A DNA stretch of 64,000 nucleotides from Chryseobacterium gleum (lineage in GTDB: Bacteria > Bacteroidota > Bacteroidia > Flavobacteriales_D > Crocinitomicaceae): contig CAMDFN010000008.1 in NCBI GenBank assembly GCA_945897565.1, positions 1-64,000 on the forward strand. Direction: 5' to 3'. This document shows positions 15,633 through 18,510 of the stretch, in pieces (the stretch's first letter is position 1; every line of letters begins with the position of its first letter). Under the pieces are notes generated by a model, which was not told the DNA's origin, did not search any database, and worked only from the letters and a program-made list of their open reading frames with translations. The translations under genes were made by a program, and so were the position numbers.

Positions 15633-15959
15633 ATGGGTATTACCAAAACCGAAACTTACACCGATCAAACCTTAAAGCTTGCAAGCATTTTCAAGGCACT
15701 CGGGCATCCGGCAAGAATTGCTATTTTGGAATTTATTGCCAAGCAAACCACTTGTATTTGTAGCGATATCGTGACAGAATTACCGCTTTCTCAAGCGAGT
15801 ATCTCTAGGCATCTGGTCGAACTCAAAGCAGCAGGATTGATCAAAGGAACCATCAGCGGCACTTCGGTATGCTATTGTATAAATGAAACGCAATTCCCAT
15901 TTTTAGAAACGTTTATCAAACAAATTCAACCATCCAACTCACAAACTTGTTGCTCATGA
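15633..15959 (+). CDS. arsR: ArsR-family metalloregulatory repressor
   Basis: 108 residues with a winged helix: KALGHPARIAILEFI at about 22-36 and the recognition helix in LSQASISRHLVELKAAGLI at about 56-74. TCICSDIV (Cys near 40 and 42) sits where some ArsR proteins bind As(III), and the C-terminus ends TCCS, giving further thiols. It probably represses its own operon through the palindrome at 15532-15547 and releases DNA upon arsenite binding. Its stop overlaps the next start (ATGA at 15956-15959), coupling it to the DUF6428 gene. Confidence 0.92.
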   Translation: MGITKTETYTDQTLKLASIFKALGHPARIAILEFIAKQTTCICSDIVTELPLSQASISRHLVELKAAGLIKGTISGTSVCYCINETQFPFLETFIKQIQPSNSQTCCS

Positions 15960-16423
15960 AAATCTCTCAATTCAAAAGTGCTTTGCAATTGGCTAAGCCA
16001 GACGCTAGCCCCATTTTTCTCCAAACTTCAGGCATTCATGTCGCTGCCCATTACCATGTTACGGAAATTGGCCTTGTTTTAAAAAACTACGTTGATTGCG
16101 GCGGGGTTGTGCGTCAGGAACGCAAAGCCACCATGCAAATCTGGCTGGCAAATGATACCGAGCATCGTTTGAGCATTCAAAAGCTACTTGAAATCATTGA
16201 AAAATCTGAACAGCTCTTTGGGCTCAAAGACGAGGAATTAGAAGCTGAATTCCAAGGAAACACCATTGAAACTTATGGCTTGGAAGCGCAAGATTTTGGC
16301 TTTCAATTCACAACCAAAAAAACAACTTGTTTGGCGCCAGGGCATTGCGGTATACCCAATGAATTGTTGCCGTTAGATATGCAAGCAAAAACCAGTTGCA
16401 GCCCTGGCTCGGGCTGTTGTTAA
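15956..16423 (+). CDS. DUF6428 family protein of the arsenic operon
   Basis: 155 residues from the ATG at 15956, which overlaps the arsR stop. No signal peptide. The body has YVDCGGVVRQERKATMQIWLA near 45-64, and the C-terminal third is cysteine-rich: TTCLAPGHCG near 120-129 and the terminal SCSPGSGCC. DUF6428 genes are known to me from arsenic operons of Bacteroidota, but no biochemical function is established. The six late cysteines suggest a metalloid- or metal-binding role, possibly passing As(III) to the ACR3 pump; this is inference only. The pump gene follows after 11 bp. Confidence 0.8.
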   Translation: MKISQFKSALQLAKPDASPIFLQTSGIHVAAHYHVTEIGLVLKNYVDCGGVVRQERKATMQIWLANDTEHRLSIQKLLEIIEKSEQLFGLKDEELEAEFQGNTIETYGLEAQDFGFQFTTKKTTCLAPGHCGIPNELLPLDMQAKTSCSPGSGCC

Positions 16424-16434
16424 TTCAGTAGGAT

Positions 16435-17463
16435 ATGAAAAACAAAAGACTCAACTTCGTTGACCGCTACCTCACCCTATGGATTTTTTTAGCAATGGGC
16501 ATTGGCGTTGCACTCGGCAATATTTTTGCGAGTATTGATCAAATCATCAATCGTTTTTCGGTCGGAACCACCAATATTCCGTTGGCTATCGGCCTCATTA
16601 TCATGATGATTCCACCTTTGGTCAAGGTGGATTTCAAAAAAATACCCGTTGTTTTTAAGAACGGAAAGTTATTGAGCCTTTCACTGCTCATCACTTGGAT
16701 CATTGGACCTTTTTTGATGTTTGTTTTAGCTACAACTTTTCTTTCAAACGAACCTGAATACCTCACAGGCCTGATCATTATCGGCTTGGCGCCATGTATA
16801 GCAATGGTCATTGTCTGGAATGAACTCGCCGGGGGTAACCGAGAGTTGGCTGCCGGTTTGGTGGGCATCAATAGTTTGCTACAAGTTTTTTTCTTCTCTG
16901 CATACGCATATTTTTATCTTGAAGTCATGTTGCCTTTATTTGGTTTTGATGCTATTCAAATTGATTTGAGCTTTTGGGAAGTCGCCAAAACAGTTGGTAT
17001 TTATCTCGGGGTTCCTTTTGTGATCGCACTCGGCCTCCGATTTTGGACCCTCCGATTTAAAGGTGAGGTCTACTTAAATACAAGGCTTATTCCAAAAATA
17101 TCTCCATTTACGCTGTACGCTTTGCTTTTTACTATCGTGGTCATGTTCAGCTTGAAAGGCCAATTAATTGCTCAATTGCCATTTGATGTGCTCAAAATAG
17201 CCCTGCCATTGGTGATTTTCTTTATCGCCATGTTTTTCTTGATGTTTTTTGTTGCCAAAAAAAGCGGCGCAAGCTATCCAGAAACAGCAACCGTAGCCTT
17301 TACGGCGTCAGGAAACAACTTTGAATTGGCCATTGCCGTGGCCATTGGCGTTTTTGGTCTCAACTCTGGCCAAGCCTTTGCAGGGGTTATTGGCCCATTA
17401 GTGGAAGTTCCAGCGCTGATTTTATTGGTGAAAGCAAGTTTATATCTTAAGAAATATTTTTGA
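16435..17463 (+). CDS. ACR3-type arsenite efflux permease
   Basis: 342 residues with about ten transmembrane helices. The diagnostic ACR3 segment IGLAPCIAMVIVWNELAGGN carries the essential Cys, and FTASGNNFELAIAVAIGVFG near the C-terminus is the second conserved block. ACR3 exports As(OH)3 through the inner membrane using the proton gradient. Its stop TGA overlaps the arsC ATG by one base (TGATG at 17461-17465), so the pump and reductase are translationally coupled. Confidence 0.95.
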   Translation: MKNKRLNFVDRYLTLWIFLAMGIGVALGNIFASIDQIINRFSVGTTNIPLAIGLIIMMIPPLVKVDFKKIPVVFKNGKLLSLSLLITWIIGPFLMFVLATTFLSNEPEYLTGLIIIGLAPCIAMVIVWNELAGGNRELAAGLVGINSLLQVFFFSAYAYFYLEVMLPLFGFDAIQIDLSFWEVAKTVGIYLGVPFVIALGLRFWTLRFKGEVYLNTRLIPKISPFTLYALLFTIVVMFSLKGQLIAQLPFDVLKIALPLVIFFIAMFFLMFFVAKKSGASYPETATVAFTASGNNFELAIAVAIGVFGLNSGQAFAGVIGPLVEVPALILLVKASLYLKKYF

Positions 17464-17873
17464 TGGAAAAGAAAAACATCTTGGTGCTGTGTACCGGCAA
17501 TAGCTGCAGAAGTCAGTTAGCAGAAGCGTATCTTCGGTATTATCATGGCGACATCGCCACTATTTACAGCGCCGGAGTAGAAACGCATGGAGTGAATCCG
17601 CGAGCAATAGCAACAATGGCCGAAGACGGTATCGATATCAGTGGCCATACCTCGAATCATGTCGATGAATACCTTCATATCCCGTTTGATTTGATTTTGA
17701 CTGTTTGTGACCACGCAAGCGAGCGCTGTCCTATTTTTCCGAGTACAGCAAAACGCATCCACCACAACTTTCCAGACCCTGCCAAAGCAACAGGATCTGA
17801 GCAAGAAATCAAAGCAGCTTTTGCTTCAGTACGAGAGCAAATCAAGCAATTCTGCGCTGAATTATTGGTATAG
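17463..17873 (+). CDS. arsC: Arsenate reductase, low-molecular-weight phosphatase type
   Basis: 136 residues from the ATG at 17463 (an in-frame TTG one codon earlier is less likely). The phosphatase loop CTGNSCRS near residues 9-16 has the CX5R pattern, and the redox pair of thioredoxin-coupled ArsC is in TVCDHASERCP near 79-89. It reduces arsenate to arsenite for ACR3 to export. It is the last operon gene, and its final 32 bp overlap the 3' end of the convergent AraC-family regulator. Confidence 0.93.
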   Translation: MEKKNILVLCTGNSCRSQLAEAYLRYYHGDIATIYSAGVETHGVNPRAIATMAEDGIDISGHTSNHVDEYLHIPFDLILTVCDHASERCPIFPSTAKRIHHNFPDPAKATGSEQEIKAAFASVREQIKQFCAELLV

Positions 17874-18444
17874 CTAAAGCTTTGCCAATATCTTCGAGCG
17901 GAATGCGGTGAATCACATCTAGATGTCGGTATTCAGAGGGTGACAAACCCGTTATTTTTTTAAACTGATTAGACAGATGTGCAATGCTACTATAATGCAT
18001 TTTGTAGGAGATTTCTGACAGATTCATTTCACCATAAAGCAGCAGTTCTTTGATGCGCTCAATTTTATGGGTAATGATAAATTGCTGAATGGTCATCTTG
18101 TTCTCGGTCCGAAATACGTTGGACAAGTAAGTATAATTCAATTTTGTTTTTTCACTTAAATAGACTGAAAAATTGGTCTTGATGTGTTCATCTGAATAAT
18201 GGACCATTTGGATAATGACCAACTTGATGCGCTCAGACAGCAGCGTTTTGGGGTCGCGAATAAGACTAAATCCAAGTTGCTGCAGTTTAAACTGTAAATC
18301 AAGCTCCTGGATCATGCTTAAGTTTTTTTCAAAATGAACTTCTCCAAGTTCAATTGTTTGGAAAGGGATGCCCATATCGACAAGGATGCCTGCAACTTGA
18401 TTGATGCAACCATGGCTCACCATGTTTTTGATGTGTATTTTCAT
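17842..18444 (-). CDS. AraC-family transcriptional regulator with N-terminal MV-x2-C segment
   Basis: 200 residues from the ATG at 18444; an in-frame ATG at 18498 exists but the segment starting MKIHIKNMV is the start seen in Bacteroidota relatives I know. The C-terminal two helix-turn-helix motifs are clear: LSEISYKMHYSSIAHLSNQF and, before it, the helix region IERIKELLLYGEMN. Relatives usually begin MKIYIKNMVCxRC, a heavy-metal-associated-like CxxC; here the same place reads MVSHGC, so one Cys is lost. The gene is convergent with the arsenic operon and overlaps arsC by 32 bp. A metal-sensing role is plausible by family and location but uncertain. Confidence 0.82.
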   Translation of the reverse strand: MKIHIKNMVSHGCINQVAGILVDMGIPFQTIELGEVHFEKNLSMIQELDLQFKLQQLGFSLIRDPKTLLSERIKLVIIQMVHYSDEHIKTNFSVYLSEKTKLNYTYLSNVFRTENKMTIQQFIITHKIERIKELLLYGEMNLSEISYKMHYSSIAHLSNQFKKITGLSPSEYRHLDVIHRIPLEDIGKALAIPIIQRRIA

Positions 18445-18479
18445 AAGAATAAGGTTATTTTCTAAATTAAAAGCCTGAT

Positions 18480-18510
18480 GATAGCTATCTTGTGTCATTT
18501 TGTAAATGAC
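18480..18510 (-). promoter_or_regulatory. Inverted repeats upstream of the AraC-family gene
   Basis: GTCATTT (18494-18500) and AAATGAC (18504-18510) are perfect 7-bp arms around a 3-nt spacer, about 50 bp upstream of the start. Next to them GATAGCTATC (18480-18489) is a perfect 10-bp palindrome. Both are suitable as operator sites; no clear -7 element was found with them. Confidence 0.4.

Follow-up and report, generated by a model that had tools for sequence, protein, structure and literature searches.

The DUF6428 gene and its ars operon

The window, that is the whole stretch of 64,000 nucleotides analysed here, carries an ars operon with the following features:

15633..15959, forward strand: arsR, ArsR/SmtB repressor with TTCICSDIV (CxC) and a near-terminal CC (PF01022/HTH_20 and NF033788 above cut-offs)
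15956..16423, forward strand: DUF6428 protein of 155 aa, a folded domain of about residues 1–120 plus a Cys tail (PF20001, AlphaFold2)
16097..16099, forward strand: codon of Cys48 in the DCGG loop, kept in 215/215 bacterial and 41/41 viral members
16328..16420, forward strand: Cys tail from Cys125 to the C-terminal Cys154-Cys155 (alignment of members)
16435..17463, forward strand: acr3, arsenite efflux permease (TIGR00832, 403.6 bits, cut-off 282.8)
17463..17873, forward strand: arsC, thioredoxin-type (LMWP-fold) arsenate reductase (PF01451; TIGR02691 with 151.7 bits, below the cut-off of 174.3)

The original prediction had placed a DUF6428 gene inside an arsenic operon, which we could confirm by the Pfam and NCBIfam assignments of the gene and its neighbours, and had let it precede ACR3, as is indeed the case with acr3 lying downstream after a gap of 11 bp. 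The match to PF20001 (DUF6428) spans residues 4–155 (E 1.7e-44, 151.9 bits against a gathering cut-off of 28.7) and covers positions 2–155 of the 155 in the profile, tail included, as in a full-length member, and the genome contains one copy of the gene. The upstream gene is recognized by the metalloregulator model NF033788 with 65.1 bits (cut-off 55). Its stop codon TGA (15957–15959) overlaps the ATG of the DUF6428 gene (15956–15958) as ATGA, from which translational coupling of the two genes appears plausible; most relatives show a gap of about 10–130 bp at this place. Similarly, the ATG of arsC overlaps the stop codon of acr3. On the reverse strand a gene for an AraC-family regulator (17842–18498) converges on arsC with slightly overlapping coding regions, and two relatives (L004 and L007) have a related gene behind their ars operon.

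A search of the accessible literature gave no paper on the DUF6428 family, the sole match to 'PF20001' being an unrelated chemistry paper, and in the accessible part of PMC9144182 'DUF' is not mentioned. As far as the accessible text of PMC6465285 goes, ars operons include genes without known function, while those ars-operon genes that were characterised turned out to have arsenic functions. A conserved member without an assigned function is therefore directly testable.

Conserved residues, cysteine tail and predicted fold

Both cysteine motifs on which the original prediction was built, TTCLAPGHC and SCSPGSGCC, are present in the window protein. Cysteines that vary within the family had been named beforehand as grounds for refutation, and this is ruled out: in a set of 215 sequences from bacteria, made up of the 212 survey loci, two loci from Verrucomicrobia and the window, we found Cys48 in 215/215, Cys125 in all 214 scorable members and the tail CC in 210/214, lying at most one residue from the end in 208/214. 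C131 is present in 194/214. The most conserved cysteine, Cys48 of the DCGG motif, had not been listed in the original prediction. Four of the 214 tails have no CC, some of them being truncated at contig ends as the printed tails suggest, and in L335 the CC tail is lost. The columns invariant among 79 diverse bacterial members include H34, E37, D47, C48, G49, Q61, E98, C125 and C154, with C155 conserved in at least 90%, and the window protein possesses H34, E37, D47, C48, Q61, E98 and C125 as well as the tail CC.

The length after Cys125 varies from 10 to 49 residues in bacteria with the cysteines kept throughout. As cysteine makes up 13% of the residues after Cys125, compared with about 1.1 Cys on average in the first 100 residues of the ORF, the tail cysteines are beyond chance. 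The most divergent Bacteroidota clade, which we call Cytophagales-type after our own reading of the group, retains only DCG, CKP and the final CC. In five loci (L095, L096, L099, L100 and L102) the DUF6428 protein is long, as a segment with additional cysteines (CKAI.RGGSCGT...GEECC) is inserted ahead of the usual tail.

An AlphaFold2 model from 13 sequences reached a pLDDT of 75.3, and one from 29 sequences with viral relatives added a pLDDT of 87.3 and a pTM of 0.76, the lowest confidence being in the tail. The model shows a helix (3–11), two long strands (33–46 and 52–64) joined by the D47-C48-G49 loop, a second helix (74–88) and three further strands (94–100, 104–112 and 115–119). Comparison of both models with the folds in the PDB gave nothing at E < 0.001 and the best Z in VIA-align 2 was 2.5, so the function cannot be read from the fold; a sequence search of the PDB gave no significant match. 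A match in BFVD, with a TMq of 0.44 at E 1.4e-3 and probability 1.00, is to Gp075 of Rhodococcus phage ReqiPoco6; as this protein by eye has at most one cysteine and lacks all the invariant motifs, we regard the likeness as one of arrangement only.

Genomic neighbours and possible function

In order to describe the genomic setting we sampled 592 Bacteroidota genomes, fetched nearly all PF20001 matches and checked 212 genes. Left out of this number were the window genome, a weak match with a stop (L113 in G578), an off-target fetch (L161), 14 short-flank duplicates of twice-fetched loci and L337, which is without an ORF match. PF20001 was present in 96/395 genomes of the phylum draw and 108/199 of the order draw, two matching genomes being common to both. 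In 171/212 cases an ArsR gene with the same orientation precedes DUF6428 at a distance of at most 150 bp, in 187/212 ArsR is encoded within 3 kb, and ArsR, ACR3 or an ArsC-like protein is encoded within 3 kb in 190/212 with none of them in the remaining 22, the counts within 3 kb being too low for 46 loci with a flank of about 1.5 kb or less. Frequent occurrence away from metal genes had been named beforehand as a second ground for refutation, and here the outcome is mixed, since the large bacterial majority lies near ars genes while these 22 copies and 53 of the 54 viral contigs described below do not.

Among the 171 neighbouring ArsRs, 156 have a CC in the last 12 residues and 137 match CxC patterns. 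The other operon partners are modular, with ACR3, ArsC-like proteins, aquaporin-type MIP, ArsM and both ArsN1-like and ArsN2-like acetyltransferases. In many operons a protein of about 200 aa resembling ArsC (L049:1984-2595 and relatives) adjoins DUF6428; it has weak arsenate-reductase matches and no Pfam family.

Linkage to ars genes recurs across lineages, being found at the Bacteroidota loci as well as on plasmids of Alphaproteobacteria, Deinococcus and Thermus. Plasmid-borne DUF6428 genes occur in Rhizobiaceae and other Alphaproteobacteria, Deinococcus, Thermus and Bacteroidota, with these genes in the regions examined:

Agrobacterium (two records): arsN2, arsC, acr3, arsH, arsK
Haematobacter: arsJ, arsC, acr3, arsH
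Roseomonas: acr3, arsC
Phyllobacterium: arsK, arsN2
Thermus: arsR only
Deinococcus: arsC, aquaporin or arsenic transporter
Pedobacter and Hymenobacter: acr3

The original prediction had proposed a metallochaperone or additional sensor. This is still plausible in view of the conserved cysteines, but a chaperone specific for ACR3, tried as the leading idea, had to be given up as unlikely because ACR3 is optional. In the phylum sample 249/395 genomes by the automatic tally, or 250 by our own list, encode ACR3 above cut-off, and by this list 59 of the 96 DUF6428 genomes do and 37 do not, with no co-occurrence beyond chance (Fisher p 0.72, 395 genomes). Thus, DUF6428 follows arsR and not one particular exporter, and this independence speaks for a protein that carries or buffers As(III) in general, or else for a co-sensor.

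We favour, at roughly 0.42, the proposal that DUF6428 is an accessory protein in the ArsR regulon that would bind As(III) with its cysteine tail and serve as a general carrier or buffer. The two parts of the protein would be a small alpha/beta domain with an invariant site (H34, E37, D47, Cys48, Q61, E98) and, joined to it, a flexible tail that bears Cys125 and the terminal Cys-Cys pair. Arsenite would relieve repression by ArsR, so that DUF6428 would be made along with the detoxification genes, and the tail thiols, perhaps together with Cys48, could bind As(III) through two or three thiolates. The bound As(III) might then be held, or handed to whichever detoxification step the operon provides (ACR3, aquaporin, ArsM or ArsN), so that the protein would carry or buffer As(III) in the cytosol in general and not be the partner of a single exporter. 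Operon position, residue conservation, modular partners and a gene fusion to ArsN2 are the observed parts of this explanation; arsenite binding, hand-over and the direction of transfer would be its predicted ones. Binding of As(III) fits with the tail length drifting while the cysteines stay and with the near-end CC in most adjacent ArsRs (156/171). Against the carrier or buffer stand the 4/214 tails without CC, the 22/212 bacterial copies and 53/54 viral contigs without an ars gene in the examined flanks, the missing phylum-wide association with ACR3 and H34, E37, D47, Q61 and E98, as these invariant non-Cys residues exceed the needs of a passive thiol carrier and would suit an enzyme or a ligand sensor.

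ArsD is a small As(III) metallochaperone encoded in ars operons that serves ArsA-ArsB pumps and has vicinal cysteine pairs. DUF6428 is likewise small, encoded in ars operons and equipped with a vicinal CC (210/214 tails), but its operon exporter is ACR3, an aquaporin or none, and no ArsD family matches the window protein, for which Pfam yields only DUF6428 at E ≤ 0.001. A second likeness exists to ArsR repressors with a near-terminal CC, known as the AfArsR type, since DUF6428 and 156 of the 171 neighbouring ArsRs both end in this way.

A rival reading is a second sensor or co-regulator, which would bind As(III) and then act on ArsR or the operator and thereby tune induction. It would account for arsR, rather than any detoxification gene, being the one near-constant neighbour: 171/212 genes lie directly behind arsR and six of the alphaproteobacterial-type loci examined show a divergent arsR-DUF6428 pairing, while exporters and reductases vary between operons. 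However, neither Pfam nor NCBIfam finds a winged helix-turn-helix in the window protein, nor Pfam any DNA-binding domain, arsR is within 3 kb in 0/22 of the ars-less bacterial loci and absent from the examined flanks of the 53 viral contigs, and the fusion partner in Deinococcus is ArsN2 and not ArsR. We regard such a regulator as rather improbable.

In two of two Deinococcus records examined a single protein carries ArsN2 in its N-terminal half and DUF6428 in its C-terminal half (NF040501 with 149 and 140.9 bits against 125; PF20001 with E 2e-35 and 4.9e-26). ArsN2, a separate gene elsewhere, differs from DUF6428 by its GNAT acetyltransferase fold. According to the accessible part of PMC6465285, arsN genes occur in ars operons and ArsN2 is clade 2 of the N-acetyltransferases found there. 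An ArsN1-like gene also lies directly behind DUF6428 in L104 and L152. These arrangements, together with the invariant His, Glu, Asp, Gln and Cys of the folded domain, would agree with an enzyme acting on an arsenical, in which H34, E37, D47, C48, Q61 and E98 form the active site and the tail delivers or regenerates thiols, possibly sharing a pathway with ArsN1/ArsN2, with organoarsenicals or arsenate as substrates. Most DUF6428 operons have no arsN-like gene in the examined flanks and there is no clear fold match to a known enzyme, although a missing match does not exclude one; on balance we think an enzyme unlikely.

As its four cysteines recur throughout several bacterial phyla and the family is also encoded by large phages, DUF6428 is a good candidate for an unstudied arsenic-binding helper in what is among the commonest types of resistance operon, and precise predictions follow from its four-cysteine signature, its modular partners and the ArsN2 fusion.

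Copies without ars neighbours, viral contigs and phylogeny

Of the 22 ars-less bacterial copies nine (L123, L311, L312, L315, L316, L318, L319, L321 and L335) lie 6–10 bp downstream of genes that all fall into one cluster. Pfam assigns the L315 gene of this cluster to the Na/Pi cotransporters, and in L321 the upstream gene is cut by the contig end. In seven of the nine a gene of the chromate-transporter cluster then follows (cluster members scanned in L312 and L123). The trio of Na/Pi cotransporter, DUF6428 and chromate transporter without ars genes nearby is seen in L311, L312, L315, L316, L318, L335 and L123 of a flavobacterial order. The flanking genes of the solo copy L097 belong to the same clusters as those of arsR-bearing relatives, and two further solo copies come from Verrucomicrobia (L010 and L012).

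The finding of DUF6428 on IMG/VR contigs was unexpected. Two profile scans (34 and 54 loci) gave 54 distinct contigs of 4.6 to 459 kb, which after dereplication encode 41 different proteins with C48 in 41/41, E98 in 39/39 and C125 in 38/39, and the tail CC in 35 of the 38 with C125. In many of them the linker before the last CC is shortened (CLAPDKCG...GCC), which is why several match PF20001 from position 1 to about 131 only. Profiles for ArsR, ACR3 and ArsC had no match in the fetched flanks of 53/54 contigs. The exception, G592 (L175/L241), has arsR, arsC and acr3, is probably a piece of bacterial DNA and is not counted among the 53; it is also the one record with ArsR HTH_5 and LMWP-type ArsC among 26 viral records searched.

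Three findings let us take the viral contigs as phages: Terminase_6N occurs in 10 of these 26 records, which represent 26 of the 54 contigs; L203 encodes a major head protein (phrog_138), relatives of which are found in the fetched flanks of 10/40 dereplicated loci; and in L186 genes for a single-strand DNA binding protein and a UvsX-like protein lie directly before DUF6428. A PHROGs scan of five viral proteins gave no family of note. The deposited phages yielded a single good match, LR756511.1, which is a record of 595 kb from an uncultured phage and has its DUF6428 gene within 1 kb of the record end. MT836168.1 (L209), filed as a human-faecal bacteriophage, was not counted as a phage since its DUF6428 is identical to that of Agrobacterium/Rhizobium plasmids and is accompanied by arsR, an MFS gene and apparent integrases, resembling an alphaproteobacterial plasmid ars island.

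The phage and solo copies might display an original, wider role in stress by thiophilic metals or oxyanions (As, Sb, Cr, Zn or similar), from which DUF6428 would have been recruited into ars operons. Such a role would agree with the 53/54 viral contigs without ars neighbours and the flavobacterial group next to the chromate transporter, but is quite unlikely in our view, as the ars link exists in every plasmid region examined (Thermus with arsR alone) and, in the tree, in each of the two deep clades of bacteria.

This tree was reconstructed from 99 core domains with L087 left out as a long branch and rooted at the midpoint; its 131 columns are few, and the group names were given with a first tree already at hand. 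One bacterial clade unites Cytophagales-type sequences, Alphaproteobacteria, Deinococcota and paralogues (support 100/100), and the window-type bacteria form a second one with a few phage rows (L176, L184, L236 and L239) among them (98/89). Placed between these two groups are 27 phage rows. As a single clade of these 27 rows is not rejected (p-AU 0.30), we claim no direction of transfer.

It is doubtful, but worth stating, that one cysteine-tailed module binding thiophilic metalloids may be present both in ars operons of several phyla and in a deep lineage of large tailed phages without nearby ars genes, the split between the window-type (CLA) branch and the phage proteins being younger than that between the window-type branch and the other bacterial branch. 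If this holds true, the phage copies could, for example, keep arsenite away from proteins of the phage or from the metabolism of the infected host. Provided that it is functional, the phage branch would represent an arsenic-linked gene of phages without further ars genes next to it, and would point to a role that goes beyond supplying a single exporter.

Seven of the viral loci (L226, L234, L244, L245, L247, L256 and L257) belong to a single group of phages that have a T4-like head protein in the vicinity and in which a membrane protein resembling by eye the transmembrane domain of ABC exporters recurs in the flanks of DUF6428.
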